From positions 186,001 to 250,000 of the forward strand of contig NZ_CP068564.1 of the NCBI RefSeq assembly GCF_016767175.1: DNA of 64,000 nt, given 5' to 3'. Each line of letters starts with the position of its first letter. The stretch's first letter is position 1. The position numbers and the translations under genes were made by a program. The notes below the pieces were generated by a model. That model saw only the letters and a program-made list of their open reading frames with translations, searched no databases and was not told where the DNA came from. Positions 13,356 through 40,171 of this stretch are shown piece by piece. Source of the stretch: Keratinibaculum paraultunense. Its GTDB lineage: Bacteria; Bacillota; Clostridia; Tissierellales; Tepidimicrobiaceae.

Positions 13356-16300
13356 CATATTATATTAGCTAGTATATTAGATAATACATTTGCAAAACTT
13401 AAATCTTTAATTCCAAATTCTTTAATTCTTATAGAGGAAGCAAGATAAATAATTCCTTTTATTTCATCTTCAAATATAATTGGTACAGCTAATAGGGAAT
13501 TCCAATCTGGCAATCCAGTAATATTATCATATCTTTCTACTTTATCCCAATCTATCATATAAACACCTTGTTTAGTTTCAATTACAGATTCTACTATATT
13601 TTGATTATAATCAATGTTATCTATCCACTGTTCTTTATGAATTTTTCTTCCATATTTTTTTACTATTTTTCCATTATTGATTAGAAATATTATTCCTAAT
13701 TGTGCTTCCAACAGTTCTATAACCCTTCCAATAAAATAATAAATCTTTTTATCTTTATCTATATTTTTGGTGCTAAGTTCTATTAATTCTATAATAGCTA
13801 AAACATTTCTTGAGTCATGCACTTCATTTCCTGTTAAAATTCCATCTATAGTATTTATTGGCTTAACTATATTTGAAAAACTTTCATTCCAAAGTTGAGA
13901 TCTATTTTTGCCGGTTTCTTTAGCAATGTATAATGCTTGGTCTACTTTTTCTATAAGTTCATTTGTAGTCTGCCCATGAGCGGGATAAGATGCTACTCCC
14001 ATACTTACAGTAATATCTATTTCTTCTGCTAGTATTTTTTCATTTTCAATTTTTTTTCTTAAATTTTCTGCTATAGTTAAAGCTTCATCAGCATCAGTAT
14101 TGGGAAGTATTATTAAAAATTCTTCTCCTCCATATCTTCCTAGAATACCTTTAGAATTTATACTGTTCATAACAATTTTTGAAATTTTTTGTAATACTTT
14201 ATCACCTGTTAAATGTCCAAATTTGTCATTTACTCTTTTAAAGCTATCTAAATCATACATTATTATGCTAAATGTTTCACTATTATTTCTTGCTCTATTT
14301 AATACATTTTGTAAAGTATCTTCTAAATATTTTCTAGTTAATGCTCCTGTTAATTTATCAGTAGAAGCTTCAATTTCTAGTTTGCGTTTTTCTAATATTA
14401 AATATAATAAATTGGAAAAATGTAAACATATTTCAAGTCCTTTTTTATTTATGTTATTGAGCACTTTATTAGATTCTAAATATAGATAACCTAATATGCT
14501 TTGAGTAGAGGTTGAATTATTATTAATGATTGGCATGCATAAGTATGCCTTTTTATCTTTTAATAAATAATCAATGTCATTGTTTTTATATGTTTCTTTG
14601 TTTGATACTAAAATGGGTTCTTTTGTTGCTCTTATTTTATCAAAAATGTATTTATTATCTAAAATATTAAAATCATTTCCAATAGAATAAATTATATTTA
14701 AATCTTGTTTTTGTCCTTCTATAATTATTGCTCCTTTTGTGGCTAAGGTTATTGAAATTAAATATTTAGTTATCATGTCAATATCTTGGCTAGTATTACC
14801 AGTTAAATTTGCCAAAATATCCTTTTCAGTGTATATACCTTTTGGCATAAGCTGTTTGCTTAAAAAGTATAAAAAGTTCTTATTATTAATAAATTTATTT
14901 ATAGAATTGTTGTTTATTAATTCATTTAATTCTTCATGAGAATTTATATAAATATTAGTTTCAAATTTTGTATTATTTAAAACATTGCATTCATCAATAT
15001 ATTTTATTCTATAAAAGGGTAAACCAAGTTTATAATTATTTACAAATTTAAGCCTAAATTCTTTTGGAATTTGATATATTAATTTTTTAATTGTATTGCA
15101 AGCTTCTATATAATAGCTTACAGCTAGATAGTAGTTTTTTTGATTAAAATAATAATTACCTAATTCAATATTTATATTTGCAGTAAGTTTTTTACTTTTT
15201 TCTTTTTCAGCTAATTCTAGTGCTTTTTCAAGCATTAGTTTTGAGTTATTTTCTTCAACAATGGCTTTAGTATAGTAATATTTAGCTTTAATTTTAGAAT
15301 CAATTGATTTTGATATGTATTCTTCAGCTTTTGCTAATAATTTTTTGCTATTTTTAGTATCTTTTTTTTCTTTTAATATTACTGCAGTTTCGCACAATCT
15401 ATTTATTTTTAAATTGTGATCTTTAAGTTTATTTATATAAGTTAAAAATTCTTCAATATTAGAATCATAAGTATTTTTTTGTTTCAATCTTATACTAATT
15501 ATGTTAGAATCAATTACATTATATATATTTAAAGCATTATCTTTACTTTCATAAAAGCTGATTGCTTTAGAATAAAATTCATTTGCTTTTTCAAAGTCTC
15601 CATAAGCATTAAATAAATTTCCTGCTGATCTATAAAATTGGGGTATATATATTCCTCGATCTGGGTATTTTTCTAAATATTGTTTAGATAGTTTATAATA
15701 ATTATATGCTTCGTAATAGTTATCCATATCTACGCATAAATCAATTAATGAAATATATAAATAGAAAATCATATCTCGGTTGTCTAAATCTAGTGATTTT
15801 TCTAAAGCAATTTTAAAATGCTTGTAGGCTTTATCATAATTTAATTTAACATAATGAATAGATGCAATATTTATTAGTCCCAGCATTTCACCATTGATTA
15901 AATTATATTCTTCTCCTAAATTTCTAACTTTGATAAAGTAGTTTAATGCTTCTTCCAAATCATGATAATAATCTGAATAGATAGTTCCAATATTATTTAA
16001 TGCAATCAATATTCCTCTTGTATAATTGATTTTTTTAAACAATTCTATACTTTTTTTATATAATTCTACTGCTTCTTCAGTTTTATTTAAATGAGCGTAT
16101 GCAAAGGCTAAGCTCCTATAAGCATTTCCTTTTATTTTATCAAATTTATTACCACACTCATCAATTACTTCTAATAAAAGCTTTATACTTTCATTAAACA
16201 TATTTTTAGTTATAAGTTGAGTTGCTTTAATTCTTTTTAATTCTAAACTAGCTTTTTGATATTCAAAGTTCTCTAATGCTTTTTCTACTTTTTTTGTATA

Positions 16301-29068: not shown

Positions 29069-29614
29069 ATGGTGGAATTAGAAAAATTAAAGATAGATTT
29101 TGCTAAAGCTGTAGAAGAATTATTAAAAGTAGCAAAATTAAAGGAAGAGGATATTTTAGTTATAGGCTGTAGTACTAGTGAAGTAGCAGGGAAATCTATT
29201 GGTTCTTCGTCTTCGCCAGAAATGGGAGCGGAGTTTATAAAAAGTATAATGCCTATTATTGAAAGGGAAAATATTTTTCTAGCTGTCCAATGTTGTGAGC
29301 ATTTAAATAGGGCATTGGTAGTGGATGAAAGATGTGCAGAAAAATATAATTTGACAATTGTTTCTGTAGTGCCTTATTCTGATGCTGGAGGATCTTTAGC
29401 ATCTGCTTATTATAGATATTTAAAAAATCCTGTAGTAGTAGAAGACATACAAGCTCATGCAGGTATAGATGTAGGGGATACTTTTATTGGTATGCATTTA
29501 AAAAAGGTTGCTGTACCAGTTAGATTATCCAGTAAAAGTATTGGTTCAGCTCATTTGACAGCAGCCAGGACAAGACCAAAGCTTATAGGTGGGGAAAGGG
29601 CAAGATACAAGTAA
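29069..29614 (+). CDS. YwlG/UPF0340 (TIGR01440) family protein
   Basis: 181 residues matching the UPF0340 family closely: VIGCSTSEVAGKSIGSSSSP, VQCCEHLNRALVVDE, VPYSDAGGSLASAYYRYL, IDVGDTFIGMHLKKVAVPVR and TAARTRPKLIGGERARYK. Known members (B. subtilis YwlG) are conserved in Firmicutes but have no established reaction; the fold is related to alpha/beta hydrolase-like aminoglycoside acetyltransferase relatives. RBS AAAGAGG lies 9 bp before the ATG. It is a single gene ahead of the heat-shock pair. Family assignment is sure, function is not. Confidence 0.88.
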   Translation: MVELEKLKIDFAKAVEELLKVAKLKEEDILVIGCSTSEVAGKSIGSSSSPEMGAEFIKSIMPIIERENIFLAVQCCEHLNRALVVDERCAEKYNLTIVSVVPYSDAGGSLASAYYRYLKNPVVVEDIQAHAGIDVGDTFIGMHLKKVAVPVRLSSKSIGSAHLTAARTRPKLIGGERARYK

Positions 29615-29812: not shown

Positions 29813-30292
29813 ATGGCAAGTTTATTACCATTTGATCCTTTTAGAGAATTAGACAGAATTCGTAAAGAAATGGATGATTTCTTTGACAGATCCCTTGTTA
29901 ATTTACCAGAGGAAAGAGTGATGATTGCTGTACCAGAAGTAGATGCTTTCAAGACAGATGATAAATTACTTATGTATGTTGAGGCACCTGGACTTAGTAG
30001 TGATGATATAGAAGTTACTGCTACTGAGGATACTATAAATATTAGAGGAGAATTTAAATTACCAGAAGTTCCAGATGGTGCTGAAGTATTAATGCGTGAA
30101 CGTAAATATGGTGAATTTAACCGTACATTTAAATTGCCAGTATCAATAAAACCAGAAGAAGTAAAAGCTTCTTACAAAAATGGAGTTTTAGAAATAAGCA
30201 TACCATTAGCAGAAAAGCATAAGACTCATAGTATAGAAATTAGCGTAGAAGATGATGAAGATAAGAAAAAGATAAGTGGCAAGAAAAATTAA
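29813..30292 (+). CDS. Small heat-shock protein Hsp20 (first of pair)
   Basis: 159 residues with an alpha-crystallin domain: VPEVDAFKTDDKLLMYVEAPGLSSDDIEVTATEDTINI is the conserved entry, and YKNGVLEISIPLAEK carries the GVLxIxxP motif. An N-terminal FDPFRELDRIRKEMDDFF segment is typical. These ATP-independent chaperones hold unfolding proteins in the cytoplasm. RBS GGAGGTGG is well placed. A consensus CIRCE site immediately upstream indicates HrcA control. It is followed 19 bp later by a second Hsp20. Confidence 0.95.
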   Translation: MASLLPFDPFRELDRIRKEMDDFFDRSLVNLPEERVMIAVPEVDAFKTDDKLLMYVEAPGLSSDDIEVTATEDTINIRGEFKLPEVPDGAEVLMRERKYGEFNRTFKLPVSIKPEEVKASYKNGVLEISIPLAEKHKTHSIEISVEDDEDKKKISGKKN

Positions 30293-30311
30293 TTTACGGA
30301 GGTGATGTTTG

Positions 30312-30797
30312 ATGGCAAACATTACTAGAAGGGATCCAGTATTTGATGAAGGAAGATCTTTACTTTCATTGCAACGTAATATGGATAAATTATTTGACGA
30401 GCTATTTAGATGGAGCGAAAGTATGTGGCCTTTTGTAGAAAGAGGCGATGAAGGATATATATATGTTGATATAATAGATAAGGAAAAAGATATTGTAGTT
30501 AAAGCGAATGTGCCAGGATTTAGAGAAGAAGATATAAATATTGAAGTGGCAGAGGATAGCTTAATTATCAGCGGAAAGATTGAAGAAGATACAGATAAAA
30601 AAGAAAAAGAAAAAGAAGAAATAAGATATATACTTAAAGAACGTCCACAAAAAATGGCTTTTGAACGAGTAATACCTTTGGGCGTTAAAGTAATGCCAGA
30701 TAAGGCTAAAGCTACATTAAAAAACGGAGTTTTAGAAATAACAATTCCTAAGGCTGAAGCAACTGAAAAGAAAACAATAAAGATTGAAGTAGAATAA
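30312..30797 (+). CDS. Small heat-shock protein Hsp20 (second of pair)
   Basis: 161 residues from the ATG at 30312. GGAGGTG lies 9 bp upstream; a TTG one codon earlier is a less likely start. The alpha-crystallin domain reads IIDKEKDIVVKANVPGFREEDINIEVAEDSLIISG and ends with LKNGVLEITIPKAE. Compared with its neighbour it has a Lys/Glu-rich insert (DTDKKEKEKEE) in the loop that mediates dimer exchange. Divergence from the first copy suggests paralogues that may form mixed oligomers. Co-transcribed from the CIRCE-regulated promoter; a strong terminator follows. Confidence 0.95.
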   Translation: MANITRRDPVFDEGRSLLSLQRNMDKLFDELFRWSESMWPFVERGDEGYIYVDIIDKEKDIVVKANVPGFREEDINIEVAEDSLIISGKIEEDTDKKEKEKEEIRYILKERPQKMAFERVIPLGVKVMPDKAKATLKNGVLEITIPKAEATEKKTIKIEVE

Positions 30798-33266: not shown

Positions 33267-33866
33267 ATGAGGTTTTTTGGTGGTATTTTTTATGATATAG
33301 AAGATGAAAGGGTAATAGAAGCAATTAGATCTATTCCTAGGGAATTATTTGTACCAGATGAGTTTAAAGATTATGCTTATGTAGATAGTGCATTGCCTAT
33401 TGGATATGGGCAGACAATTTCCCAGCCATCTTTGGTAGCATATATGACTCAGTTGCTTGAACTTGACAAGAACAAAGAGGTATTGGAGATAGGTACTGGC
33501 TCTGGGTATCAAACTGCCTTATTAGCAAAATTAGCTAAAAAAGTATATACTGTTGAGATTATAGAAGAACTTCAAAAAAGGGCAAAAAAGATATTGGATA
33601 AGTTAGGATTAGACAATATAAAATATAAAATAGGTAATGGATATGAAGGATGGGAAGAATATGCTCCTTATGATGCTATAATGGTTACAGCTGCACCGCC
33701 TGAAGTTCCAGAAAAACTATTGGAACAACTTAAAGATAGTGGCAAAATGGTTATACCAGTAGGGAAACCTGGTCATACTCAAGTACTTAAACTTATAATA
33801 AGAGAAGGAGATAAATTTATTGAAGAGGATCTTCAATATGTTAGATTTGTGCCAATGGTTAAATAA
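33267..33866 (+). CDS. pcm: Protein-L-isoaspartate O-methyltransferase
   Basis: 199 residues, the usual size. Family motifs: IPRELFVPDEFKDYAYVDSALPIGYGQTISQPSLVAYM (substrate side), VLEIGTGSGYQTALLA (SAM-binding motif I) and YDAIMVTAAPPEVPEKLLEQL (motif II/III). The enzyme uses SAM to methylate isoaspartyl residues in aged proteins, starting their repair. It lies 21 bp ahead of a GATase-DUF1284 fusion and pepC, in a likely three-gene operon. Intact. Confidence 0.93.
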   Translation: MRFFGGIFYDIEDERVIEAIRSIPRELFVPDEFKDYAYVDSALPIGYGQTISQPSLVAYMTQLLELDKNKEVLEIGTGSGYQTALLAKLAKKVYTVEIIEELQKRAKKILDKLGLDNIKYKIGNGYEGWEEYAPYDAIMVTAAPPEVPEKLLEQLKDSGKMVIPVGKPGHTQVLKLIIREGDKFIEEDLQYVRFVPMVK

Positions 33867-33887: not shown

Positions 33888-34931
33888 TTGATACTTATAA
33901 TAAATTGTTTATTGGAGGAAAAAAGCATTTTAAAATTTAATGAAGCTCTGAAATATAATCTAGGGGATTTACATATTGATTATGAGATTATAAGAGCAGT
34001 AAGTATGGATGAAATATCTGATTTAAATAAATATACCCATTTAATCATATCAGGCTCAGCAGCTTCAGCTAAAGAGGATAGACCTTGGAATTACAATCTA
34101 GAAAATGCAATAATACATTTTATAAATAATAAAAAACCAATATTGGGAATATGTTATGGACATCAATTTCTTGTTAGAGTATTAGCTGGAGTAGAACATG
34201 TAAGAGTTGCTGAAAGAGGAGAAATTGGTTTTGCAAGAATTGATATAGATGATAATGAATTGTTTGAAGGAATAGAAAATCCTGTATTTTGTGTATCTCA
34301 TTATGAGGAAGTATTTGACTTAAACGATGATTTTAATATAATTGCTAGAAACAAAAATTGTTCTGTTCATGGATTTCAATATAATAATTTGCCAATTTGG
34401 GGTACTCAATTTCATCCAGAATATAGGGTAGAGGATATGATGGAAAGCATTAAAAAGAAGCAAAAAGAAGATCCTGATTTTAAAAAGTATTATATAAATG
34501 AATTAAAAGATGAACGAGAAATGCTACAAAATAAATTAATATTTAAGAATTTTGTAAATTCCAATAATATTTGTCTAAGACCTCACCATCTAATGTGTAT
34601 TCAATCTTATGTAGGTAAAGGTTATAGTGAAAAATTTATAGAGAATATGGATACTGTAGTTGAGAATTTAAAGGAAAATCCAAATCAAATTATTAGGATA
34701 GTTAAGGGAAATGATCATATATGTAATTATTGCCCTCATAATTTGCATGGAGTAAAATGTGAATCAGATGATAAAGTAAATATCATGGATAAAAAAGTAT
34801 TGGAATATTTAAATATTGCACCAGGCAAATATAGTTATAGTGAATTGCTCAATAGGCTGAAAGAAATAAGAAATGAAGAAGTTTTTAAGAATATATGTAG
34901 AGATTGTGAGTGGTATACTCTATGTTATTAA
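33888..34931 (+). CDS. Class I glutamine amidotransferase fused to DUF1284
   Basis: 347 residues from a TTG at 33888, preceded by AAAGGGGG. Residues 1-200 are a class I glutamine amidotransferase (GATase) domain: LIISGSAAS, the nucleophile elbow ILGICYGHQFL and the His/Glu pair in GTQFHPEY are all present. About 225-347 is a DUF1284-type domain that opens ICLRPHHLMCIQSYVGKGYSEKFIENM. It has Cys clusters (HICNYCPHNLHGVKC and NICRDCEWYTLCY) that could bind Zn or an iron-sulphur cluster. GATases deliver ammonia from glutamine to a partner active site; here the partner may be the DUF1284 domain. The reaction is unknown. It sits between pcm and pepC with about 20-bp gaps, so the operon links it to protein turnover. 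Confidence 0.75.
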   Translation: MILIINCLLEEKSILKFNEALKYNLGDLHIDYEIIRAVSMDEISDLNKYTHLIISGSAASAKEDRPWNYNLENAIIHFINNKKPILGICYGHQFLVRVLAGVEHVRVAERGEIGFARIDIDDNELFEGIENPVFCVSHYEEVFDLNDDFNIIARNKNCSVHGFQYNNLPIWGTQFHPEYRVEDMMESIKKKQKEDPDFKKYYINELKDEREMLQNKLIFKNFVNSNNICLRPHHLMCIQSYVGKGYSEKFIENMDTVVENLKENPNQIIRIVKGNDHICNYCPHNLHGVKCESDDKVNIMDKKVLEYLNIAPGKYSYSELLNRLKEIRNEEVFKNICRDCEWYTLCY

Positions 34932-34951: not shown

Positions 34952-36292
34952 ATGGGTAAAAAATCAATATCTAATGAGCTTATTAAGAAATGTTCTGAGT
35001 ATTATAATTCTGATTTAAATAACAAGGTATATTCAGATGCTGTGATAAGAAATGGACTTGTGGATGTAGCATTAAGGCATGATGCCATTGCAAATATGCA
35101 TTTTCATTTTTCTGAGGAAATTGATGTGGGAAAAGTTACAAATCAGAAGAAGACTGGAAGATGCTGGATGTTTGCTGGTTTAAATTGTATACGTCATAGT
35201 ATTTCTAAAAAGTTACAAATGGAAGAAAAGGATTTTGAGCTTTCTCAAAATTATATATTTTTTTGGGATAAGCTAGAAAAATCAAATTTATTTTTGGAAA
35301 ATATTATAGCTACTATTGACAAGGATTTAGAAGATCATGAAGTTATAGGATTACTAAGTTCACCTGTTCAAGAAGGTGGAAGATGGGGACTATTTGCAAA
35401 ACTTATAGAAAAGTATGGAGTAGTTCCTAAGTATGCAATGCCAGATTCTAAAGCTTCAGAGGATTCAAAGATGCTTAACGAAATACTTAATTACAAAATG
35501 AGAGAATATGCTAAAATATTAAGGGGAATGTATAGAGAAGGTAAATTAATTGATGATATAAGGGAAGAAAAAGAAAGCATGTTAATTGATGTATATAATA
35601 TTTTATGTCGATTTATGGGAGAACCACCAAAGACTTTTGACTTTGAATATAGGGATGTTGATGGAGACTTTCATAGAGAAAGGAATATAACACCTTTAGA
35701 TTTTTATAATAGATTTTCAGATGTAAAGCCAAAAGATTATATTGTATTGGTAAACTATCCCACAGAGGATAAGCCTTTTGGGAAAACCTATACTTTAAAA
35801 TATCATGGTAATGTAGTTGACGGTGAACCAATTAAATATTTAAATATGGATATAGATGTATTAAAAGAACTGGCTATAGCTCAAATTAAAGGTGGAGAAC
35901 AGGTTTCATTTGGTTGTGATGTAGGTAAGATGTCTCATAGGGAATTTGGAATTATGGATACTAACTTGTTCAATTATGAAACTGTTTTGAATACTAAGTT
36001 TATTATGGATAAATCCGATAGACTTATGTATAGGGCTAGCGGTTCTTCCCATGTAATGACCTTTGTTGGTGTTAATCTTGTAGATGGAAAGCCTAATAGA
36101 TGGAAAGTTCAAAATAGTTGGGGAGAATCAGAAGGAAATGAAGGGTTTTATGTAATGAGTGATGAATGGTTTGATGAATATGTTTTAAGAGTTGCTATAA
36201 ATAAAAAATATGTACCTAAAGAAATAATAGAAGCTTATGAACAAGAGCCAATAGTTTTAAGTCCATGGAATACATTAGGTCCAGTGTTTTAG
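34952..36292 (+). CDS. pepC: Aminopeptidase C (bleomycin hydrolase family, C1B)
   Basis: 446 residues, standard for PepC. The papain-type triad is visible: Cys in QKKTGRCWMFAGLNCIRH, His in GSSHVMTFVGVN and Asn in WKVQNSWGES. The C-terminal arm of PepC/bleomycin hydrolase (ending LSPWNTLGPVF) reaches into the active site and gives aminopeptidase activity; the enzyme is a cytoplasmic hexamer. RBS TTAGGAGG. Third gene after pcm and the GATase fusion. It fits the peptide-degrading theme of the window. Confidence 0.94.
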   Translation: MGKKSISNELIKKCSEYYNSDLNNKVYSDAVIRNGLVDVALRHDAIANMHFHFSEEIDVGKVTNQKKTGRCWMFAGLNCIRHSISKKLQMEEKDFELSQNYIFFWDKLEKSNLFLENIIATIDKDLEDHEVIGLLSSPVQEGGRWGLFAKLIEKYGVVPKYAMPDSKASEDSKMLNEILNYKMREYAKILRGMYREGKLIDDIREEKESMLIDVYNILCRFMGEPPKTFDFEYRDVDGDFHRERNITPLDFYNRFSDVKPKDYIVLVNYPTEDKPFGKTYTLKYHGNVVDGEPIKYLNMDIDVLKELAIAQIKGGEQVSFGCDVGKMSHREFGIMDTNLFNYETVLNTKFIMDKSDRLMYRASGSSHVMTFVGVNLVDGKPNRWKVQNSWGESEGNEGFYVMSDEWFDEYVLRVAINKKYVPKEIIEAYEQEPIVLSPWNTLGPVF

Positions 36293-37528: not shown

Positions 37529-39118
37529 ATGATTAATAAACAAGAAGAATTAATGACAATTCAAGAAGCAAGTGAATGGGCAAGTAATTATTTAGATAGA
37601 GAAGTAACTGCATCTAATATATCTTATTTAATACAATATGGACGAATAAAAAAAATAGAAAAGAATGGAAGAATTCAAATATCAAAAAAAGATTTAAAAA
37701 ATTATTATGAATCTTATTTAGGGAAAAGAGAAATAAAATGGAAAAAACAATTAGGGGATGATTTAAATTGGGAATTATCTTTTGATAATTTAAAAGAAGC
37801 AGATACTACAAAACACGTACATAGGTTGCATCCTTATAAAGGGAAGTTTATTCCGCAATTAGTAGAATATTTTTTAGATGATCATACTGATGCGTATAAG
37901 GATGAAGTTTATTTTAATAAAGGTGATATTGTTCTTGATCCTTTTTGTGGTTCAGGAACTACTCTTGTTCAAGCTAATGAATTAGGTATACATGCTATAG
38001 GAATTGATATTTCAGAATTTAATACGTTTATTAGTAATGCTAAGATTACAAGATACAATTTGGAAGATATTGAGTATGAAACTAATAGAATATTAAAAAT
38101 GTTAAATGAAATGGATGAATCATCAAATATAGTAAAGTTTGAAAATGAATTATCAGATGTGTTATCGAAATTTAATAATAGATATTTCCCTTCACCAGAA
38201 TATAAGCGTAAAGTAAGAAACAAAGAGATAGATGGCAAAAAATATGGAAAAGAAAAAGAAAAAGAATTTTTACCTATATATTATAATTTAGTAAACAAAT
38301 ATGGAATAAAATTAAAACAAGATAATGATGAAACTTTTTTAGATAAATGGTATATAAGCAATGTACGTAAAGAAATAGATATGACTTTTGACTTGATTAA
38401 AGATATTAAAAATATAAATACAAAAAAAATAGTAGCTTTAATTTTAAGTAGAACCATGCGTTCTTGTAGAGCAACTACTCATTCTGATTTAGCAACATTA
38501 AAAGCTCCTGTATTAACTACTTACTATTGCCATAAACATGGGAAAATTTGCAAACCTTTGTTTACTATATCTAATTGGTTTTCTAGATATAGTAATGATA
38601 CTATAAAGAGATTAAGAGAATTTGATAAATTGAGGACTGATTCATATCAAATATGTTTAAGTGGAGATTCAAGAAATATGGATATTTTTGAAGTAATAAA
38701 AGAAAAAAATAAGTTGTTTTATGAATTATTAAGGGAAAATAAAATAAATGGCATTTTTACTAGTCCCCCTTATGTAGGTTTGATAAATTATCATGAACAA
38801 CATGCATATGCTTATGATCTATTTGGATTTAATAGGCGAGATGATTTAGAAATAGGACCTCTTTTTAGAGGAAGGGGAAAAGAAGCTAGAAAATTATATG
38901 TACAAGGTATTTCAGATGTGTTAATAAATTGTAAAAGATTTTTGGTAGATGATTTTAATATTTTTATAGTAGCTAATGATAAATATAATTTATATCCAGA
39001 AATTGCAAAGAAGTCTGGATTAAAAATAGTTAATGAATTTAAAAGGCCGGTTTTAAATCGAACAGAAAAAGATAAAAAAGCCTACTCTGAGATAATATTT
39101 CATATGAAAAGGAGATAA
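37529..39118 (+). CDS. Type II DNA methyltransferase (amino-MTase) with N-terminal HTH
   Basis: 529 residues. The first 60 form an excisionase-like helix-turn-helix (LMTIQEASEWASNYLDREVTASNISYLIQYGRI). The SAM-binding motif DPFCGSGTT is at 137-145 and the catalytic SPPY at 412-415 (TSPPYVGLINYHEQ), with about 270 residues between them that should hold the target-recognition region. S-P-P-Y motifs are typical of N4-cytosine methyltransferases, though N6-adenine cannot be excluded. The enzyme would protect host DNA from the nuclease encoded 3 bp downstream. RBS GGAGAGG. The HTH may let it autoregulate or aid binding. The modified site is not visible from sequence. Confidence 0.88.
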   Translation: MINKQEELMTIQEASEWASNYLDREVTASNISYLIQYGRIKKIEKNGRIQISKKDLKNYYESYLGKREIKWKKQLGDDLNWELSFDNLKEADTTKHVHRLHPYKGKFIPQLVEYFLDDHTDAYKDEVYFNKGDIVLDPFCGSGTTLVQANELGIHAIGIDISEFNTFISNAKITRYNLEDIEYETNRILKMLNEMDESSNIVKFENELSDVLSKFNNRYFPSPEYKRKVRNKEIDGKKYGKEKEKEFLPIYYNLVNKYGIKLKQDNDETFLDKWYISNVRKEIDMTFDLIKDIKNINTKKIVALILSRTMRSCRATTHSDLATLKAPVLTTYYCHKHGKICKPLFTISNWFSRYSNDTIKRLREFDKLRTDSYQICLSGDSRNMDIFEVIKEKNKLFYELLRENKINGIFTSPPYVGLINYHEQHAYAYDLFGFNRRDDLEIGPLFRGRGKEARKLYVQGISDVLINCKRFLVDDFNIFIVANDKYNLYPEIAKKSGLKIVNEFKRPVLNRTEKDKKAYSEIIFHMKRR

Positions 39119-39121
39119 AAA

Positions 39122-40171
39122 ATGAATTTACCTAAAGATAAAGTAGAAAAATTATCACATCTGGTAATAGAGGTGTTGTTTAAACGATTTGAGACTTTTC
39201 CTGATGATTCAATGAATAATAGAAATGCACCTTTTCATGAAGCTTTTTTAAAAGCATTTTCTGATAAGCTTAATGGTAAAGTGATTGATATACCTTTTTT
39301 TATAAGCCTTAGTAGTTGGTTACATGGGTTAAACACTACATTAGGACAGACTTTTTTTGAAAAAGCTGCTCATATATTATCAGATGGAGAAAAAAGAGAA
39401 TATACTTCCAAAAAATTAGGGAATTTACAAATTTCAAAAGTACAGAAAGACAATATTAATAAGCTTATGACTGAATTAAGTACTTCTGTTAGAAAACCAA
39501 ATTTGATAGAAGAAAATAGAATTCTTTTTGTTGAGGATTCTTCGGAAAGAGAAAATGCTAATAATTTTTCGTGTGATGTTTTTATTGAAGATGAGAATGA
39601 AATAATTGCTATTGAATTAAAATCTGTCAAGCCCAATTCTGGAGAAATGGCAGGAGAGAAACGTAAGATATTAGAAGGGAAAACTGCATTATTTGAGAAT
39701 TTTCCAGGCAAAAAGATTAGATTTTATATGGGCTTCCCATTTGATCCAACGGCTATGAAACCTTTTGAAAATAATAAAGATAAATTTATGAATTCTATTA
39801 TTAACTGTAGGAAATATTTTGATAGGGATGAAATTTTATTAGGGGATGAATTATGGGATTTTTTATCTGGAACGAATAATACTATGCAAGAATTAATAAA
39901 CATAATAAATATAATTGCAACTACTGATTTTTTAGATAAATATAATTTTATTAATGATAAATCAAATATATGTTTAAATGGATATGAAAAACAGCTTAAA
40001 ACATGGAATCTATTTTCAGAATTAGAGTTGTTAAGTAATAATAATATAATTAATGAGAAAATAAAAGGTAATAATAGATTAAATAGAATTTATAATCAAA
40101 AAGCTTTTAATAAGGGAAAATATAATTGGAATAGGTATTATACTTTAATGAAATTAATAGATAATGGCTAG
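39122..40171 (+). CDS. Type II restriction endonuclease, probably TdeIII-like
   Basis: 349 residues starting 3 bp after the methyltransferase stop, with AAAAGGAG as ribosome site. A PD-(D/E)xK nuclease core is visible: Asp152 in SCDVFIEDENE and Glu165-Leu-Lys167 in IIAIELKSVKPNSGEM. The order Asp, about 12 residues, ExK is right for this fold. The stretches KSVKPNSGEMAGEK and FYMGFPFDPTAMKPF recall the TdeIII group (known specificity GGNCC). That group name is from memory and needs a profile search. The pair looks intact and would cut unmodified foreign DNA. Its position between housekeeping genes suggests acquisition by transfer. Confidence 0.7.
   Translation: MNLPKDKVEKLSHLVIEVLFKRFETFPDDSMNNRNAPFHEAFLKAFSDKLNGKVIDIPFFISLSSWLHGLNTTLGQTFFEKAAHILSDGEKREYTSKKLGNLQISKVQKDNINKLMTELSTSVRKPNLIEENRILFVEDSSERENANNFSCDVFIEDENEIIAIELKSVKPNSGEMAGEKRKILEGKTALFENFPGKKIRFYMGFPFDPTAMKPFENNKDKFMNSIINCRKYFDRDEILLGDELWDFLSGTNNTMQELINIINIIATTDFLDKYNFINDKSNICLNGYEKQLKTWNLFSELELLSNNNIINEKIKGNNRLNRIYNQKAFNKGKYNWNRYYTLMKLIDNG

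Follow-up and report, generated by a model that had tools for sequence, protein, structure and literature searches.

A class-I glutamine amidotransferase fused to DUF1284, a cysteine-rich domain with a predicted role in biotin acquisition

Stand-alone glutamine amidotransferases (GATases) of the PRK09065 kind and of the GMP synthase subunit A kind belong to the family PF00117 and carry a GICYGHQ elbow together with an HPE motif. Gamma-glutamyl peptidase 1 and the PuuD-like amidases are likewise class-I GATase-type hydrolases, which act on amides without supplying a synthase; we know of no cysteine-rich partner domain for them. The domain family DUF1284, which we take to be COG3543, is encoded as a stand-alone protein in nearly all other genomes that we saw, often adjoining bioY, and many of these stand-alone genes share the gene order and operators of the BioY-BirA regulon (with BioR as repressor in Alphaproteobacteria). 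Our literature search found no paper naming DUF1284 or COG3543; most subscription papers lay outside its coverage, and an earlier mention is possible. The passages available from PMC4554459, PMC8831719, PMC545781, and PMC5343134 do not mention the domain.

We analysed a stretch of 64,000 nucleotides of the Keratinibaculum paraultunense genome (hereafter the window) containing a gene in which these two families are joined. Its product shares the PF00117 family, the GICYGHQ elbow and the HPE motif with the GATases named above, but scores below their cut-offs and bears DUF1284 at its C-terminus. Its DUF1284 half resembles the rest of that family in its full-length match, in all conserved cysteines and in its RxHH motif, whereas it differs by being fused, far from bioY and without an operator of the BioY-BirA type.

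Domains and relatives of the fused protein

The fusion gene (33888..34931, forward strand, as are all its parts given below) is an open reading frame of 347 amino acids without internal stops; it begins with a TTG codon, with a GGGGG stretch ending seven bases upstream, and recurs in loci L097 and L098. The GATase domain occupies residues 17-184 (33936..34439) and matches PF00117 at 85.6 bits against a cut-off of 22.8. It contains both the nucleophile and the His-x-Glu pair of the class-I triad, namely Cys89 in GICYGHQ (34152..34154) and His176-Pro-Glu178 in QFHPEY (34413..34421), which are identical in all four aligned GATases: the window protein, the two other fusions described below and an unfused GATase of genome G430. 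Among sequences of solved structures, the best relatives of this half were the GATase subunits of GMP synthase (best E-value 2.2e-19), with gamma-glutamyl peptidase 1 further down. This half scored under the curated cut-offs of all 25 NCBIfam models among the matches listed, the best being PRK09065 (92.9 bits vs 205), and it missed the equivalog cut-off of GMP synthase subunit A (82.7 bits vs 198). Of the unfused GATases in 41 genomes, the nearest was the stand-alone G430 protein (42% identical); G430 has no bioY and, among the matches listed, falls outside the genomes of the order that contain DUF1284.

A linker (residues 185-228; 34440..34571), defined as the gap from the GATase match to the conserved DUF1284 motif, leads into the DUF1284 domain (residues 229-347; 34572..34928). 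The Pfam match proper covers residues 245-346 and the entire PF06935 model (positions 1-102) at 98.6 bits against a cut-off of 25, while the conserved half starts earlier, with the sequence LRPHHLMC at residues 230-237 (motif LRPHH-x2-C). From residue 226 onward the protein has eight cysteines (229, 237, 279, 282, 291, 337, 340, and 346). Seven of them, the exception being Cys229, were invariant among 71 aligned sequences, most of which come from Firmicutes. A wider alignment of 15 rows, which included Alphaproteobacteria, a Bacillaceae plasmid, an archaeon, and Coriobacteriia and Treponema MAGs, retained as invariant Cys237, 279, 291, 337, 340, and 346, together with G243, G245, Y246, D276, D301, and W342; R231, H233, and H234 were nearly invariant (one row begins after them) and C282 was missing in seven rows. 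The window protein has all six of these cross-phyla cysteines and the RxHH-x2-C motif. From cysteine conservation alone, DUF1284 would most likely bind a metal or Fe-S centre.

The predicted model of DUF1284 is of high confidence (mean pLDDT 94.8, pTM 0.87). A fold search with it gave no match at E ≤0.001 in PDB or BFVD, which is no proof of a new fold, and a VIA re-examination of 154 chains against the model returned a single row with a Z score of 2.1. The DUF1284 profile had no match among PDB sequences at E-values up to 10, and Pfam and NCBIfam scans of the 71 members recovered no other family above chance; matches to the SPASM Fe-S domain, at E-values of 0.09-0.2 and under the cut-off, appeared in two of the 71. 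In another architecture, an N-terminal DUF1349 is fused to DUF1284 in proteins of 323 amino acids (L189:406-1374, by Pfam, and the near-identical L200:4395-5363), so DUF1284 is portable.

Recurrence, origin and selection

Among 249 genomes of the order, 23 contained DUF1284 and three, belonging to three genera, contained the fusion: the window genome, G610 (an open frame of 358 codons, 69% identical to that of the window) and G611 (351 codons, 64% identical). We found no further fusion among the 67 DUF1284-containing genomes of 398 sampled across the phylum, nor among the 25 of 391 sampled across the class, these three samples having some genomes in common. In the phylum and class samples no DUF1284 frame exceeded 231 codons, a length that cannot hold two domains, apart from a 324-aa frame in G270 and a 352-aa frame in G333, which proved to be DUF1284 frames reading through an overlapping bioY. 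A scan of genome contigs confirmed 303 of 327 stretches as relatives, of which the best 80 included no GATase fusion; this collection may omit the window genome and its near kin. The whole fusion, searched against phage records, was covered to 80% in none of the 10 listed out of 20. Plasmids were searched with each half separately, 15 of 29 records being listed in one of these searches, so that a plasmid-borne fusion is conceivable. Relatives of DUF1284 also turned up in two phage entries, MT835897.1 and MT837888.1; both are human faecal contigs entitled 'Bacteriophage sp.', which lack annotation and may be bacterial DNA.

In a tree based on 133 columns, the DUF1284 domains of the three fusions formed one clade (SH-aLRT 92), which indicates a single origin of the fusion; with a support of 77, this clade neighbours the unfused copies from Anaerosalibacter and from a relative. 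No DUF1284 match was seen in the 19 further genomes listed for the family of the window genome, so its lineage either gained the gene or was alone in keeping it. Purifying selection acts on both halves: between fusions, the nonsynonymous proportion was 0.10-0.24 in both domains, as against a synonymous proportion of 0.47-0.79, and the nonsynonymous values were lower in the DUF1284 half than in the GATase half. A chance read-through is ruled out by this selection and by the recurrence in two other genera. The fusion is therefore a new architecture joining two known families, real but rare. An intact GATase triad and a DUF1284-type domain with eight cysteines, some in C-x2-C pairs, had been claimed in the original prediction and were found as described, PF06935 being over its cut-off across the full model in the C-terminal part, and the fusion turned out to be genuine and not confined to this assembly.

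DUF1284 genes, bioY and biotin-repressor operators

The first four stand-alone loci that we opened, chosen for kinship or for a long frame, all had bioY adjoining DUF1284. We then counted adjacent pairs, defined by a bioY gene in the same orientation and no more than 150 nt away from DUF1284. Adjacency by this definition occurred in 57 of 80 named loci (the best 80 of the 303 relatives, a similarity-ranked and Lachnospiraceae-rich set), in 18 of 68 loci of a phylum sample drawn evenly (70 loci, of which two fragments went undetected; own genome excluded), in 13 of 24 loci of the class sample (again without the own genome; the phylum sample has three of its genomes as well), and in four of the nine plasmid regions examined from among 15 records, all four from Alphaproteobacteria. 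In the even phylum sample, three more loci had bioY at 0.7-1.6 kb and seven had birA next door; 40 of the 68 had neither gene within 1.5 to 4 kb per side. Within the 57 pairs, the RxHH motif began at most 30 nt from the last bioY codon in 39 and 45-149 nt from it in eight, and DUF1284 was placed just ahead of bioY in the other ten. Given that bioY is present in 354 of the 398 phylum genomes, it is adjacency and not presence that counts as evidence, and this adjacency requires 17 changes on the DUF1284 tree.

The genomes with fusions, as well as the sister genomes G608 (Anaerosalibacter) and G609, also contain bioY. In the window genome, however, it lies 1.9 Mb along the contig from the fusion, and no bioY was found within 1.5 kb of the fusions of G610 and G611.

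Several other neighbours of DUF1284 were seen in particular sets of loci. A ferredoxin-oxidoreductase-like gene (by eye) is the constant upstream neighbour in L002-L007, and a thioredoxin-like gene (also by eye) in L017, L020, L026, L030, L072, and L090; none of these sets is represented among the eight singleton DUF1284 genes with operator scores of at least 13 described below. In one locus (L052:7153-10068) birA, bioY, DUF1284, and a carbon-nitrogen hydrolase gene stand in a row. The superfamily of this hydrolase includes biotinidase; none of 89 named loci had a hit to it, nor to the nitrilase adjoining DUF1284 in G270. The DUF1284 gene of G237 (L089:3809-4309), directly downstream of bioY, is interrupted by a TGA codon, by decay or by a sequencing fault.

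To score operators we used the 16 core positions of the published BirA consensus, TTGTAAACC-[N14/15]-GGTTTACAA, as given in part of PMC545781, with dinucleotide shuffles as control. A BirA-type operator of at least 14 of 16 preceded 39 of 86 bioY-DUF1284 pairs (0.2 in shuffles), against four of 97 singletons (0.3 in shuffles, at most 1), one of which (L177) is GC-rich and doubtful. At a threshold of 13, the counts were 52 of 86 pairs (3.15 in shuffles) and eight of 97 singletons (3.1 in shuffles, at most 5), a weak excess, so that the looser score tells little about the singletons. The stand-alone sister copies of the fusion, which are among these singletons, scored 16 of 16 in G609 and 14 of 16 in Anaerosalibacter G608. 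In the 2.8 Mb of G609, which belongs to the same family as the fusion-bearing G610 and G611, the exact pattern has two occurrences in all (none in the reversed control): on contig 28 at 15198-15228, 74 nt before the lone DUF1284 gene (match 14822-15124, minus strand), and on contig 2 at 154114-154144, 162 nt before a bioY match (154306). The sole exact site of G608 and that of G611 likewise stand before bioY. Whole-genome pattern searches found no exact site in G610 or in the window genome, whose bioY is preceded by two sites of 14 of 16. In the 400 nt ahead of each of the three fusions no BirA-type operator was present, the best score being 11 of 16. Lacking both an operator and a nearby bioY, the fused copy may have left the biotin regulon, may be constitutive, or may have changed in role.

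A different motif was found in two alphaproteobacterial pairs. Both plasmids tested, from Agrobacterium vitis and Rhodovulum, have an exact BioR-type site, TTATCTATAA, just before bioY-DUF1284, with a gene for a GntR/FCD regulator upstream. This sequence occurs in the BioR probes printed in the part of PMC4554459 available to us. The expression of DUF1284 thus reads as biotin-responsive in two phyla, under two different predicted repressors.

Possible functions of the fusion and its gene neighbours

The explanation that we tentatively prefer, and which we rate slightly short of an even chance, is that of a single-origin fusion between an amide hydrolase and a biotin-acquisition protein, DUF1284, in which an amide is cleaved for the reaction of DUF1284. 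The GATase half would be a Cys-His-Glu amide hydrolase, predicted to be probably glutaminase-competent, and DUF1284 a small cysteine-rich protein of biotin acquisition, encoded in many bacteria with BioY under biotin repressors. The amide cleaved would most likely be that of glutamine or of a biotin-like vitamer, and its cleavage would serve a reaction that DUF1284 performs or aids in biotin salvage. The parts of this explanation differ in strength. Gene order and predicted operators make it very probable that DUF1284 is a biotin-acquisition protein; that the fusion remains in biotin metabolism seems about evenly balanced. It appears rather unlikely that the GATase half is an amidase acting on a biotin-type amide, and about as unlikely that ammonia is delivered to DUF1284. 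A further, improbable possibility is that DUF1284 acts in biotin salvage, as a carrier or as an enzyme without a name so far, and is produced together with BioY under the control of BirA or BioR. The fusion would then reveal its partner chemistry, the cysteine amidase either freeing biotin from biotin amides such as biocytin and biotinyl peptides or feeding an amide-derived product to the cysteine-rich centre.

The main rival, less likely than the explanation above and on the whole doubtful, holds that the fusion is neofunctionalised: DUF1284 would have lost its biotin role and would now serve a general amidase of the gamma-glutamyl peptidase or PuuD-like type as a metal-binding module for regulation or docking. 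The three fusions without operator and without adjoining bioY are compatible with this, as are the portability of DUF1284, seen in its joining to DUF1349, and the place of gamma-glutamyl peptidase 1 among the solved relatives of the GATase half. However, the fusions keep all seven conserved cysteines and the RxHH motif, and it is the DUF1284 half that shows the lower nonsynonymous proportions.

A further alternative, which we regard as unlikely, is a glutamine-dependent synthase in which ammonia released by the GATase is channelled into DUF1284 and used there without ATP. Enzymes such as HisF and Pdx1 use channelled ammonia in this way, and the Q of GICYGHQ, which has a role in glutamine binding, is intact along with the triad in the four aligned GATases; the best solved relatives, being glutaminase subunits of GMP synthase, also agree with it. 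Against it, a GATase was almost never found near DUF1284 (a single hit among 89 named stand-alone loci, 530 nt away and on the opposite strand), Pfam recognised no known domain besides DUF1284 in the C-terminal half, and the closest unfused GATase stands alone in a genome outside those listed with DUF1284. Ammonia delivery is a sub-case both of our preferred explanation and of this alternative, so that the respective confidences overlap. The original prediction that ammonia from glutamine is used by or on DUF1284 is unsupported, and the biotin link of the domain had been missed.

The distribution of biotin synthase bears on the kind of biotin link. A bioB gene over the cut-off was commoner in the presence of DUF1284 (27 of 67 genomes) than in its absence (70 of 331; Fisher p 0.0016, kinship ignored), and it was absent from eight of the 18 genomes with bioY-DUF1284 pairs. 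The window genome, in which no bioB over the cut-off was found, should rely on biotin uptake, and together with the eight paired genomes it favours uptake or salvage over synthesis. A plasmid of D. shibae bears a bioY-DUF1284 pair, and this species is described as a biotin auxotroph in the available part of PMC8831719. That DUF1284 aids biotin synthase, by supplying Fe-S or sulfur to BioB, and is linked to synthesis instead of uptake would fit the commoner occurrence of bioB with DUF1284, but is made very improbable by D. shibae and by the paired and window genomes without bioB.

If DUF1284 acts in biotin acquisition, as we consider very probable, an uncharacterised family gains a concrete and testable place. 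Gut species and roseobacters are among the bacteria that depend on biotin import, which gives interest to a protein that recurs as a partner of BioY and seems to respond to the same repressors. The fusion hints at the chemistry of DUF1284, the biotin link of the domain being the more useful result of the two.

The immediate neighbours of the fusion in the window, on the same strand, are pcm (protein-L-isoaspartate methyltransferase; 33267..33866), 21 nt upstream, and a gene for a C1B-type peptidase (PF03051, pepC; 34952..36292), 20 nt downstream. They had been taken as a clue to the modification or turnover of damaged peptides, an operon logic that we dropped because the loci viewed do not conserve it. 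pcm was not a conserved partner in the loci examined and pepC was absent beside the two other fusions, which adjoin a gene for a substrate-binding-type protein in G610 and an endonuclease/phosphatase-like gene in G611 (both named by reading the sequence). In turn, the two best full-length pcm orthologues in 20 relatives had neither pepC nor the fusion within ~1.5 kb on each side. As the neighbours differ among the three fusions, the pcm-pepC setting tells little. A pcm match in G417 (L231) contains one TGA, four TAG, and three TAA codons and is decayed-looking or poorly aligned.

Farther away in the window, a DNA N6/N4 methyltransferase gene is directly followed by a gene for a TdeIII-type restriction endonuclease (37529-40171), forming an ordinary type II restriction-modification pair, and two tandem small heat-shock-like genes (29813-30797; Hsp20-type, by eye) lie downstream of a DUF436 gene (29069-29614).
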